Assembly (NCBI GenBank): GCA_015492075.1
Contig: WGFU01000019.1
Coordinates: 1 to 64,000, forward strand
Direction of reading: 5' to 3'
Source: Gammaproteobacteria bacterium
Lineage (GTDB): Bacteria > Pseudomonadota > Gammaproteobacteria > GCA-2400775
DNA: 64,000 nucleotides
A program made the position numbers and the translations under genes. The notes under the pieces were generated by a model. The model was given only the letters and a program-made list of their open reading frames with translations, did not search any database and was not told the origin of the DNA. Below are positions 31,673 through 36,845 of the stretch, piece after piece; the stretch's first letter is position 1, and each line of letters starts with the position of its first letter.

Positions 31673-31759
31673 GCCCGGGTGGCGAAATTGGTAGACGCAA
31701 GGGACTTAAAATCCCTCGGTGGAAACACCGTGCCGGTTCGATTCCGGCCCCGGGCACCA
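31673..31759 (+). tRNA. tRNA-Leu(TAA), integration target
   Basis: GCCCGGGTGGCGAAATTGGTAGACGCAAGGGACTTAAAATCCCTCGGTGGAAACACCGTGCCGGTTCGATTCCGGCCCCGGGCACCA; long variable arm. Confidence 0.97.
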
Positions 31760-31762
31760 TTA
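31736..31762 (+). repeat. attL-like direct repeat (tRNA-Leu 3' end)
   Basis: GTTCGATTCCGGCCCCGGGCACCATTA, matches 36375-36401 at 25/27. Confidence 0.85.
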
Positions 31763-31892
31763 TCAAAAATCAATGATTTGCGCTTCTTGCCGCTTTTTGA
31801 CACTTCTTACAGTAAAACAGTTACTTAACATGTAATCCCTCTTTTTCTTCCCGCGCGTTACCCCTCTTTTCACCGCTTGATGTATGATTTCC

Positions 31893-31921
31893 TTACGCCA
31901 TATTTACGCCATTGGCGTAAA
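31893..31921. promoter_or_regulatory. Candidate integrase arm-type sites, left end
   Basis: TTACGCC at 31893 and 31904 (11-bp period) plus inverted GGCGTAAA at 31914-31921. Confidence 0.5.
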
Positions 31922-31937
31922 TCAAAGGGGGGCATAC

Positions 31938-32042
31938 ATGGCCACATTCAGAAAACGAAACGGCGGCTGGCGCGCCGAGGTGTGTATCAAGGGCACGCGC
32001 ACATCGGCGACCTTCACCACCAAGCGGAAAGCCCAGGCCTAG
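31938..32042 (+). pseudogene. Truncated tyrosine-type integrase N-terminus
   Basis: MATFRKRNGGWRAEVCIKGTRTSATFTTKRKAQA* ; typical integrase N-terminal DNA-binding segment, then stop and loss of homology. Confidence 0.75.
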
Positions 32043-32123
32043 GCGGCGGGCCGGGGCAAACTGAAAAAGCTGGCGCGGGGGGTGCTATGCCTCGGTACCG
32101 CCCGGGGTGGATGCTGCGAAATT
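32043..32123 (+). pseudogene. AbiEi gene fragment fused to the integrase remnant
   Basis: About 80 bp almost identical to 34528-34607 inside the abiEi gene (about 4 mismatches, 1 indel). Confidence 0.85.
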
Positions 32124-32352
32124 ATATTACTGTCAGTCAAGTTTTTTATTCAATGGCGCAAATGATTAAAGATTGGTTGTGAAATAATATTTATAAAACA
32201 ATGACTTGTTTGTTTAAGTCTTTAACTGGGCAGGCTTTTCAACACGTCCGCTAACAAGTAATAGTAGCAATAGGTTGAAATAATCCTATAATAGCCGATA
32301 ATTAACAATATATTGTCAATTTGCGCTTATAAAGCGTTATTTGGGTGCTGTC

Positions 32353-33549
32353 ATGCTTCATAAATACCGATTCAAGAACTTTTTCTCGTTTGCTGGCGAG
32401 ACGGAGGTTTCCTTTTTGCTGAACCGCCAGACTCCAGTAACGGACCTGATCTTCGAGAGTCCAGGTGGCGCCCGCCTATCGAAGGTGCTGGCCGCTATCG
32501 GTCCTAATGCCTCCGGTAAAACCAATGTGTTAAAGCCGCTGGCTTTCCTGAGTTGGTTTGTTGCCCATTCGTTTACTGCCAGCAAACCGGAAGAGGATAT
32601 TCCGGTGCAGGCTCATTTTTTCTCAGACAAGGCGGACTGCGAGTTTGAAATTGAGTTCGAGAACGAGGGTCAGCATTACCGTTATTCGCTTATTGTAAAT
32701 CCAGAACGGGTCGTGCACGAATCCTTGCATCTCAAGACCAGCAAGTTTTTCAGCTTTATTTTCCGGCGTGACTGGTCGGAGCAAGACTCGGGCTACGACA
32801 TACGCCAGCAAAAATTTGGTTTTGCCACTAGAGAAGCAGAAAAAGTACGTCCAAATGCCTCCCTGATTGCGACGGCCGCCCAGTACAATGTGCCATGCGC
32901 TCGTGCACTGGTCAGCTACTTTTCCCGGTTTTATACCAATGTGAACTACGGTGGCAGGGATCACTTCAAGACCAGCGATGTGTTTGACGCTACAGAATTC
33001 TTTCATGGTCGACCGGCTTTGCGTGCGCAGATGTCTGTGCTCTTGAGTCGACTGGATCTCGGTCTCTCAGAGGTTATCATTGAATCCCGCAAGGTTGTGG
33101 AAAAGGAATCAGGCAAGAGCGAAGAGGCCAATATCCCCGTTGGTGTGCACAGAATGAGTGAGCAGGTACAAAAGTTGCCATTCTGGTATGAATCCAGCGG
33201 CACTCAGGCGGCATTTGTGTTGCTTGAGAAGATTCTGCCGGCATTGGAACACGGTGGTATTGTTATCATTGATGAAATGGAGGCAGATCTGCATCCAGAG
33301 ATGATTACCGCGATGCTTGATCTGTTTATTGATCGCGAACGCAACCCACATAATGCGCAAATTATCTTCACCTGCCATGCGCATGAAGTGTTGAACGACT
33401 TGCAGAAAGATCAGGTATTGCTCATAGAGAAGGATACGAATGGATTCAGCGAGGCATGGAGATTGGGCGATATGAAAGGTATCCGGCGGGATGACAACCT
33501 GTACGCTAAGTATCGTGCGGGCGCATATGGCGCCGTACCAAATCTTTGA
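32353..33549 (+). CDS. AAA15-family ATPase, AbiLi/RloA-like defence protein
   Basis: Walker A IGPNASGKTN, NFFSFAGETEVSF N-terminus, Walker B GGIVIIDEMEADLHPEM, C-terminal IIFTCHAHEVLNDL. Confidence 0.85.
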   Translation: MLHKYRFKNFFSFAGETEVSFLLNRQTPVTDLIFESPGGARLSKVLAAIGPNASGKTNVLKPLAFLSWFVAHSFTASKPEEDIPVQAHFFSDKADCEFEIEFENEGQHYRYSLIVNPERVVHESLHLKTSKFFSFIFRRDWSEQDSGYDIRQQKFGFATREAEKVRPNASLIATAAQYNVPCARALVSYFSRFYTNVNYGGRDHFKTSDVFDATEFFHGRPALRAQMSVLLSRLDLGLSEVIIESRKVVEKESGKSEEANIPVGVHRMSEQVQKLPFWYESSGTQAAFVLLEKILPALEHGGIVIIDEMEADLHPEMITAMLDLFIDRERNPHNAQIIFTCHAHEVLNDLQKDQVLLIEKDTNGFSEAWRLGDMKGIRRDDNLYAKYRAGAYGAVPNL

Positions 33550-33560
33550 TGGCATAACAA

Positions 33561-34076
33561 ATGCCAACTCGCAAACGCCGTTCCGTTTCTCATACCGTAC
33601 TATTGGTTGGTGAGGGCGCAACCGAGCAGGCCTTTCTGAAACACATAAAGTCCCTGTACATAAGTCGGGGTTGTGGTGTGGGTGTCACTATCCGCAATGC
33701 TCACGGTAAAGGTCCTGATCATGTGGTGGATTATGCCATTGGGCAGTGCCGCAATGCAGCTTACGATCGAGTTGCGGTGCTTTTGGATACCGACCTGGAA
33801 ATGTCAGCGGCGGCGCGCAGGCGGGCAGGAGCAAACAAACTCCAGATCATCGGAACATCGCCCTGTATTGAAGGCCTGTTGCTCGCAATTCTTGGAGAGC
33901 ATGTGCCGGGAAGCAGTGCAGAATGTAAGGCGCGGTGTGGTGGGATACTTCCCGCTCGGCTGACGTTACCGGAGGACTATCGATCGTATTTTCCAAGAGA
34001 TTTGCTGGATGAGCGGCGGGATGAGGTACCTGAGCTCGGGGAATTGCTGAATAGTCTGACATTTGATGATCGTTAA
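33561..34076 (+). CDS. RloB/AbiLii-like TOPRIM-type protein
   Basis: LLVGEGATEQAFLKHIK, RVAVLLDTDLE, GTSPCIEGLLLAILG motifs; immediately downstream of the AAA ATPase. Confidence 0.7.
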   Translation: MPTRKRRSVSHTVLLVGEGATEQAFLKHIKSLYISRGCGVGVTIRNAHGKGPDHVVDYAIGQCRNAAYDRVAVLLDTDLEMSAAARRRAGANKLQIIGTSPCIEGLLLAILGEHVPGSSAECKARCGGILPARLTLPEDYRSYFPRDLLDERRDEVPELGELLNSLTFDDR

Positions 34077-34358
34077 CCCCAAATTCTTCGCTACAAACTG
34101 TCAGCATGGTCATTCATAGTATGAAGGGTGAGTTGGGTCGGACCTATCTAACTCGCTGAAAAAATGGCAAATCATTGAAAATTGTCCATAAATCCGTGCT
34201 TAAATGACGCATTTCATGGGCGAAATATATGCTTTAAGTCAGGTTACGCAGGATTCCTTTATCACGCTCTGCTCCCGGTAGACCCTCACGCAGATCGCGC
34301 TGAACACGTATACGAAGGGGAGATGGGTGGTTTTCGGATAACACTTGATATTAATGTT

Positions 34359-34387
34359 GGATATAGGGGAATATAACCCCTATATCC
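34359..34387. promoter_or_regulatory. Perfect inverted repeat, candidate AbiEi operator
   Basis: GGATATAGGGG-aatataa-CCCCTATATCC, 11-bp arms, 29 nt upstream of the abiEi ATG. Confidence 0.7.
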
Positions 34388-34416
34388 GCAAATAATGACA
34401 AGTTATTGGCTAACCC

Positions 34417-35220
34417 ATGGACACCAGCACATTTCTGCAAACACATCGGGTTTTCAACCTTGATGAAGCCGTACAGGCCCTGGCCCCGTCCGGGGGGCGC
34501 AAGGCGACGCTGGAGCGCCTGAACTATGCGGCGGGCAGGGGCAAACTGAAAAAGCTGGCGCGGGGGGTCTATGCTTCGGTTCCACCCGGGGTGGATGCTG
34601 CGAAATTTCAGCCGGATCGCTTTCTTGTGGCGGCGGCGCTGCGGCCGGATGCGGTCTTTTCCCATCACTCGGCGCTTGAACTGCTGGGTGCGGCGCATTC
34701 CGAATGGCGGTTATGCACCGCCTACAGCGCTCGGCGATCGCAGCCGTTCGATGTGGATGGTCTTGAACTGCGCTTTTTGTCCTACCCGCAATCGCTGGTG
34801 CGTCATCAGGCGGTTGACTTAGGTCTACGCGCCGTCCACCGGCTTGATCGTGAACTGCATGTGACCGGACCTGAACGTACCTTGATCGACGGTTTCCGCC
34901 GGCCGGATCGGGTGGGTGGGCTTGCGGAGTTTGTCGAGTCGGCGGCGGGATTCTCTGTGCTGGAGCTGCCATTGTTGTTTGAGCTTCTGGACGTGTTTGG
35001 GCAGAAAGGCTTGTGGGCCGCGGTTGGCTGGTTTCTCGAAACCTACCGTGCCACCTTTTATGTCAGTGATGATGACTTCACAGTCATCGACAAACAGGTT
35101 CCAAAGGCACCGCTTTATCTTGCCAGGGATCAGCGTGGTGGTGTGCTGGTACGGCGTTGGAACCTGATCGTCCCTGATGAACTTGTAACGGGCAAGGAGC
35201 CGGATGAACCTCAGCGCTGA
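34417..35220 (+). CDS. abiEi: Type IV toxin-antitoxin AbiEi family antitoxin
   Basis: N-terminal winged-helix (RKATLERLNYAAGRGKLKKLARGVYASVPPG), FSHHSALELLGAA, TGPERTLIDGFRRPDRVGG. Confidence 0.88.
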   Translation: MDTSTFLQTHRVFNLDEAVQALAPSGGRKATLERLNYAAGRGKLKKLARGVYASVPPGVDAAKFQPDRFLVAAALRPDAVFSHHSALELLGAAHSEWRLCTAYSARRSQPFDVDGLELRFLSYPQSLVRHQAVDLGLRAVHRLDRELHVTGPERTLIDGFRRPDRVGGLAEFVESAAGFSVLELPLLFELLDVFGQKGLWAAVGWFLETYRATFYVSDDDFTVIDKQVPKAPLYLARDQRGGVLVRRWNLIVPDELVTGKEPDEPQR

Positions 35221-36161
35221 ACACATTGAAAGACTGGTGACAGAGACCGGCTTCCGTCCGGAGACGCTGGAGAAGCTAATCCGCCTGGGCGAATTTGCGG
35301 CAGACGCCGGGCGTCATCCGCTGCTGTCGCGTGTGCTGGCCCTGAAGGGTGGTACAGCGTTGAACCTGATGTTTGGTTCTCCGGCCCGGTTATCGGTTGA
35401 TCTCGATTTCAATTACATCGGGCAGGCCGACCGGGTGGGTATGCAGGCCGAGCGCCCGGAGGTGGAACGGGCCATTGCGATCATCGGAGAATGGCAGGGA
35501 TACCGTGTGCAGCAGTCACGCGACGCCCATGCCGGCCGGAAGATCTATCTTTCCTACACCAGCTCGGCCGGTACGCCTGACCGTATCGAGGTTGATCTGA
35601 ATTTTCTGTTTCGCATACCGCTCGGGGAAATCATAACCCGGCCACTCTGGCAACCACCGGGAATCGCGCGCCCGGAGATTCGGGTCGTGCCGCTGGAAGA
35701 GTTGTTTACCGGAAAACTGCGTGCCACCCTGGGTCGGGCGATGCCCCGCGATTTGTTCGATACCATTCGTTTGCCCGAATACGGGGCGGGTATCTGGGGA
35801 AGTCGGCGATTGCGCCGGATTCACGTGACGCTGGGTGTTGCACTGGTTCTACCAATACGGACGAGATCGCTTTGAGCGTGTGACCAACAGAAGTATCGAG
35901 GAGCAGCTCTTGCCCATGCTTCAGGCTAACGAGCAGCCAGTGGCAAGCGAGTTAAAGGAACAGGCGTGGGCCGTGATGGAACCGCTGGTTATGCTTGATG
36001 AGGCCGAGCGGGAATATGTGGATCGAGTACATGCCGGTGAACTGTCGCCGGAATTGCTGTTTCCCGATGACGAGGCACTGGCTGATCGGCTGGTACGGCA
36101 TCCGGTATTGCTGTGGAAGATCGAAAACGTGAGACGGCATCTTTCCAGATCACGCCGGTAA
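35204..36161 (+). pseudogene. abiEii: AbiEii nucleotidyltransferase toxin, frameshifted
   Basis: N-terminal part 35204-35875 (LKGGTALNLMFG...RLSVDLDFNYI); C-terminal part continues in another frame at 35835-36161 (HWFYQYGRDRFERVTNRSIEEQLLPML). Break near 35825-35840. Confidence 0.8.
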
Positions 36162-36319
36162 GATGCGCGGTTTTTTCGTGTAGGACTTATACAGGATTGA
36201 GTTCTGTATCGTCCTGCGTTGCCAGGTAAAAAAAGCGCGTGATCTAGTGAGGCGAAGTTAAGGATTGTATACTCAGGTTGCATGAGCCGGCCGGTGGCGG
36301 AACTCAAATTGCTGAGCAA

Positions 36320-36343
36320 TTACGCCAGTTTTACGCCTACGCC
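36320..36343. promoter_or_regulatory. Candidate integrase arm-type sites, right end
   Basis: TTACGCC at 36320 and 36331 (11-bp period), then TACGCC at 36338. Confidence 0.5.
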
Positions 36344-36374
36344 ACGCAAAGGTAACTATTTGTTTATAAATGGC

Positions 36375-36401
36375 GTTCGATTCCGGCCCTAGGCACCATT
36401 A
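36375..36401 (+). repeat. attR-like direct repeat of tRNA-Leu 3' end
   Basis: GTTCGATTCCGGCCCTAGGCACCATTA. Confidence 0.85.
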
Positions 36402-36845
36402 ATTTCAATGGGTTGTGCATTGTTTCTAGAAATATTCTAGTCTTGTTTGCCGACTTTCCTTGCCGCAGCATAATAGTGTCGATGTCTCATCTTATGGCCG
36501 CCGCGCCTAGATTTAACGCGAGCACGTCTACATTTTTCTGGCGCGCTGCCTTGGGTAGGCGGTCCGACATGGCTGTCGATCCAATCAATTGGGTGGATAG
36601 TTTCAGTACGCTATGTCGTGCTCATGCTATTTGGCCCGGCAGGCGAAAAATGCCAGCTTGCGTTGTCATTGTGGCAGAGGCCACTTTATCTGCACGCTAC
36701 TAAAAGCAGACACCAGCTTCACAGTAAAATGACAGTTTGGCGATCAGTTTTTAACATTTTAGAGCCTATACTGTGTGTTAGCGCCATTTAACGCATATTT
36801 ACAGCCGGGTTGATGGCGGTTTTTTATACTACCGCTGGAGATTGA

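Follow-up and report, generated by a model that had tools for sequence, protein, structure and literature searches.

A small composite island with AbiL- and AbiE-type genes at the 3' end of tRNA-Leu(UAA) in an uncultured gammaproteobacterial lineage

Introduction

Defence islands at Escherichia coli hotspots include elements that target the 3' end of a tRNA gene, and the toxin AbiEii of the type IV toxin-antitoxin system AbiE has been reported at just a few of these hotspots (PMC10121019). A further family of systems couples an AAA ATPase to a TOPRIM-type partner. RloB, the second component of AbiL-type pairs, has been linked to OLD_TOPRIM, and AAA antitoxins paired with TOPRIM_OLD toxins have been reported (PMC10440598). 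One AbiLii, from Fusobacterium and assayed in E. coli, was toxic and was not neutralised by its AbiLi (PMC3985639).

Here, we describe a locus at which both types of system meet behind a single tRNA gene. It lies in a 64,000-nucleotide stretch (the window) that is part of contig C19 of a 1.65-Mb draft genome, 80% complete. Very probably, an element with a phage-type integrase entered at the 3' end of tRNA-Leu(UAA), the integrase was later lost and the island became fixed, with an AAA-RloB pair as its likely functional cargo and a decayed AbiE operon.

Results

The target gene comes third, after tRNA-Gly and tRNA-Cys, in a local gene order that we take, by eye, to be uvrC-pgsA-tRNAGly-tRNACys-tRNALeu. 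This order and the hosts of close gene relatives point to Gammaproteobacteria. Three features define the site and the outer limits of the island:

31673–31759, forward strand: tRNA-Leu (UAA), corresponding to leuZ, the integration target (ARAGORN)
31736–31762, forward strand: left att-like direct repeat at the tRNA 3' end, identical to 36375–36401 at 25 of 27 positions
36375–36401, forward strand: right att-like direct repeat at the island end; homology to genome G151 ends at 36402

The 27-bp direct repeats described in an earlier note on this DNA are borne out. The left copy comprises the last 24 bases of tRNA-Leu and three more, and on both strands of the 64 kb the runner-up outside tRNA genes matches at 17 of 27 positions; the T-arm origin of the repeat accounts for weak matches in other tRNAs. 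A degenerate second tRNA at 36375 was considered and rejected, since ARAGORN sees no tRNA body there.

Between the repeats, the island opens with the remains of an integrase gene and is framed by short repeats:

31893–31921, forward strand: TTACGCC repeats, putative left integrase arm sites; a similar pair precedes related phage integrase genes
31938–32039, forward strand: integrase N-terminal stub of 34 codons (phage integrases match at 65% identity, E 1e-6)
36320–36345, forward strand: TTACGCC repeats, putative right integrase arm sites; the array is longer in G151

The integrase start noted earlier beside the tRNA is thus real, although short. Its frame begins MATFRKRNGGWRAEV with an ATG at 31938, and its TAG stop at 32040 is supplied by AbiEi-derived sequence. 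The 65% identity to annotated Pseudomonas phage integrases starts at residue 1; the stub also resembles integrases borne on plasmids, and its 34 codons gave no Pfam match. Contig C19 has no integrase-family match, the three of this genome sitting on C4, C10 and C22, which, like the reduction to a stub, supports the proposal that the island is immobilised. The sequence TTACGCCANNTTTACGCC occurs without mismatch in exactly two copies in the window, at 31893–31910 and 36320–36337, one per island end. Similar TTTACGCC pairs are found directly upstream of the matching integrase frame in Pseudomonas phage Lodos and in a P. aeruginosa plasmid, a likeness from which we infer that the TTACGCC repeats at both ends are integrase arm sites.

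Among 369 genomes of the class searched for AbiEii, G151, a member of a different family, encodes a protein of 94% identity. Its contig C40 matches window positions 34309–36402 at 94% nucleotide identity, and the match runs a single base beyond the right repeat. G151 has the 27-base tRNA end in its exact form, and its TACGCC array is longer than that at the right end of the island. The gene before AbiE, in place of AAA-RloB, encodes a protein of 304 aa whose OLD-like TOPRIM match is weak. This comparison covers the right end of the element, as C40 breaks just upstream of the 304-aa gene; leuZ of G151 lies on another contig (C29), to which C40 is not joined, and is followed by a P4-type integrase. 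The right boundary is therefore supported by an independent sister element, while the left boundary rests on the repeat and the integrase stub. Taken together, the repeats, the stub and the end of G151 homology uphold the integration at the tRNA-Leu 3' end and the boundaries that had been proposed for it.

The same-genus search for an empty site covered four congeners (G001–G004), none with an assembled leuZ/ATP-grasp junction. The leuZ of G001 is interrupted, at a contig end, by another element; in G004 (L041:1–3040), unrelated sequence follows tRNA-Gly where tRNA-Cys and tRNA-Leu are expected; and G002 and G003 showed neither a pgsA orthologue nor a tRNA-Leu(UAA) match. No island was seen at leuZ of two further genomes, G313 and G115. 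The P4-type integrase after leuZ in G151 and the third element that interrupts leuZ in G001 indicate that leuZ is a used site in the class.

Several side observations concern these genomes. The tRNA-Leu of G001 is broken at the anticodon loop and followed by a reverse-strand frame that by eye resembles an integrase C-terminus (L008/L040:1–290), and the sequence after tRNA-Gly in G004 may belong to a further island at this tRNA cluster. Repeat-like matches on G001 contigs C80 and C178 were rejected, both being tRNA-Phe sequence. Elsewhere in G001, a tRNA-Phe 3' half without its 5' half (L099:4037–4120) is a probable remnant of another tRNA island boundary.

The genes could also have accreted at leuZ or been inherited vertically, with no site-specific integration and the right repeat being a decayed tRNA or resembling a T-arm by chance. 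T-arm sequences do recur among tRNAs, no same-genus empty site is available, and the GC content of AAA-RloB is near that of the flanks. We nevertheless regard such a history as highly implausible: the agreement between the two repeats stands far above the 17/27 of the next non-tRNA match, 36375 has no tRNA body, G151 homology stops immediately behind the repeat, and an integrase stub is accompanied by paired repeats at both ends.

As for the cargo, the earlier note's description of it as purely defensive holds for the recognisable genes, which a PADLOC search matched to AbiLi, AbiLii, AbiEi and AbiEii. The first two form the AAA-RloB operon:

32276–32335, forward strand: promoter of the AAA-RloB operon with an AACA-N6-TGTT palindrome, both conserved (alignment of 11 loci)
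32353–33549, forward strand: AAA ATPase of AbiLi type, 398 aa, intact (PADLOC AbiLi, 9.4e-75; PF13304)
33561–34076, forward strand: RloB/AbiLii, predicted TOPRIM-like effector, 171 aa, intact (PADLOC AbiLii, 1e-16; PF13707)

Both proteins keep their conserved motif residues, namely Walker A, Walker B and signature residues in the ATPase and the GEG and D-x-D (predicted TOPRIM acidic) residues in RloB. The dN/dS of the AAA gene between loci is about 0.05 (strong purifying selection), which shows that the family is maintained by selection. The ATPase also matches AriA (PADLOC, 7e-34) and, among solved structures, gave only weak matches, to PtuA. RloB has a weak GajA match beside its RloB/AbiLii matches; its structural model is confident, with a mean pLDDT of 87, and OLD nucleases are among the top fold matches, none at E ≤0.001. 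Relatives of the ATPase were absent from viral contigs; two Stenotrophomonas phages encode it at 37% identity, and plasmids only at 33% or less. Upstream of the ATPase gene, the -35/-10 elements and the AACA-N6-TGTT palindrome are kept in 11 loci, the most distant of which has 44% protein identity. This conservation points to possible autoregulation of AbiL-type operons.

Ten relatives of the AAA-RloB pair were recovered at 62–90% identity. RloB adjoins the ATPase gene in all ten, and none of their loci carries a convincing AbiE. Counting the window, 10 loci could be scored, and at 6 of them the pair lies within 1.6 kb of a tRNA gene (Leu, Val, Phe, Ala, Asp and SeC), against 8% of sequence in a rough control (P ~4e-5). 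As tRNA genes are general island hotspots, we make no claim of a dedicated AAA-RloB mechanism. At L029 (9815–11775), the 3' end of phoB carries an insert of 1.86 kb that consists of AAA-RloB alone, is bounded by a 52-bp direct repeat and leaves no room for an integrase; in the relatives G387 and G389, phoB adjoins a convergent lipoprotein gene, and these look like the empty site. At L028, in G375, the pair follows tRNA-SeC, which the relative G401 joins straight to the downstream gene. L023 appears to be a tandem island, in which an integrase-like frame follows a second tRNA-Val repeat. We consider it doubtful, though conceivable, that the AAA-RloB genes and their conserved promoter/operator make up a non-autonomous mobile defence cassette of two genes. 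Such a cassette would land repeatedly at the 3' ends of tRNA and protein genes; lacking its own integrase, it would rely on integrases acting in trans or on recombination with the target.

The surroundings of these and other loci are varied. In G375 (L028:9880–14140), tRNA-SeC is followed by AAA-RloB, a HigBA-like pair, an HD-domain gene and a TetR-like gene (the last two recognised by eye); the same slot holds a different insert in G374, starting with a DUF1778-like frame (by eye), and is empty in G401. After tRNA-Thr at L026 (3541–11721) come a retron-type reverse transcriptase, a Y1-transposase-like gene (by eye) and AAA-RloB, whose RloB stops 3 bp before an epimerase-like gene. In G313 (L063:4683–17247), an integrase, a candidate defence ATPase (PDC-S06), an intact AbiE and a Wadjet-like SMC operon (by eye) occur together.

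The AbiE operon and the trace of another gene occupy the right part of the island, and a fragment of a second AbiEi lies on the left, next to the integrase stub:

34285–34314, reverse strand: ribbon-helix-helix gene remnant between RloB and AbiE (93% over 30 bp to L025)
34343–34403, strand not assigned: inverted repeat before AbiEi that may act as its operator; the core is also in G151
34417–35220, forward strand: AbiEi antitoxin/repressor, intact (PADLOC AbiEi, 1.7e-64; no indels relative to G151)
35204–35875, forward strand: gene for the toxin AbiEii, whose frame shifts near 35848 because 8 bp present in G151 are missing; what remains, as far as 36161, is out of frame
32040–32123, forward strand: pseudogene fragment of a second AbiEi, nearer to the AbiEi of G151 (96% identity) than to the local copy (91–92%)

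The counterpart of the ribbon-helix-helix remnant in L025 is an RHH_9 gene beside AAA-RloB. AbiEii was assigned at 2.5e-62, and its nucleotidyltransferase domain was matched; its frame encodes 223 aa here and 321 aa, intact, in G151. Searches for AbiEi relatives in viral contigs and plasmids, and for AbiE matches among solved structures, returned none. Judged from its reading frames, AbiE is decayed, with the antitoxin/repressor intact and the toxin broken, and the 8-bp deletion leaves one of the two systems likely functional in place of the two stacked defence systems previously proposed. AbiEii could instead be functional through frameshifting, or the lesion could be an assembly error, so that both systems work. 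The remainder of the toxin is indeed readable in another frame, with 96% nucleotide identity to G151; the lesion, however, is an 8-bp deletion and not a homopolymer slip, and we judge this improbable.

The partial AbiEi copy also bears on how the island was assembled. A fragment that is closer to the AbiEi of G151 than to the local gene, and that is fused to the integrase stub, shows the island to be composite and speaks against a single clean insertion. An alternative origin for this arrangement is that AAA-RloB inserted by itself into an existing AbiE island, the AbiEi fragments being target-derived flanking repeats comparable to phoB in L029. AbiEi-derived direct repeats do flank the pair (32040–32123 and 34524–34607), L029 offers a precedent in its AAA-RloB insert of 1.9 kb, which has a 52-bp repeat, and AbiE in G151 has no adjoining AAA-RloB. 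This course of events is unlikely, though it deserves some weight, because the repeats do not resemble one duplicated target: the left fragment is nearer to the G151 gene than to its supposed twin, and its counterpart on the right is a whole gene.

Discussion

We favour a history in which a small element encoding a tyrosine integrase of phage type would have inserted at the 3' end of tRNA-Leu(UAA), its own att copy restoring the tRNA. The simplest reading of the second AbiEi is that two related AbiE elements then recombined at leuZ, probably with loss of the integrase beyond its first 34 codons, after which the island would have become fixed. AAA-RloB would be the most likely functional cargo, as an AbiL-type abortive-infection pair. 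By analogy with AbiL, PARIS and OLD systems, the AAA ATPase may sense infection or restrain its partner (sensor/antitoxin), and the TOPRIM-like RloB may be the toxic effector released on infection.

On a small scale, the locus illustrates how defence cargo at a tRNA hotspot is swapped and later becomes fixed. The island and its sister in G151 share an AbiE block and att end but differ in the AAA/TOPRIM-type gene that comes before; in the island, the integrase has been lost, and one system has decayed while one has been kept. The occurrence of AAA-RloB beside several tRNA genes and behind phoB, in two cases with empty-site relatives, makes testable whether integrase-less minimal insertions share a common route.

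Each component has a described counterpart. The AAA-RloB pair shares with AbiL (AbiLi/AbiLii, equivalent to RloAB) the two-gene order of AAA_21 and RloB; it differs in being chromosomal and gammaproteobacterial rather than on a lactococcal plasmid, and in its short RloB (171 aa). PARIS (AriA/AriB) and other AAA/OLD-TOPRIM pairs have the same general architecture, and the ATPase matches AriA, but the effector here is of RloB/AbiLii type and not AriB (DUF4435), and the AbiLi match is far stronger than that to AriA. The AbiE genes resemble the characterised type IV toxin-antitoxin system (PMC3985639) in their overlapping AbiEi-AbiEii operon, promoter inverted repeat and nucleotidyltransferase domain, whereas the toxin of the window is frame-shifted. 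The sister element in G151 (L062) agrees with the island, at 94% identity, in its AbiE operon, its right-hand arm-like repeats and its att; it differs in the weak OLD-like TOPRIM gene that replaces AAA-RloB and in its intact AbiEii. With the E. coli hotspot islands (PMC10121019), the locus shares a tRNA 3'-end target, att repeats, a tRNA-adjacent tyrosine integrase and defence cargo, and it is set apart by its very small size (4.6 kb), its integrase stub, its composite structure and its uncultured lineage. It is an ordinary, well-supported example of the known tRNA-integrated kind.
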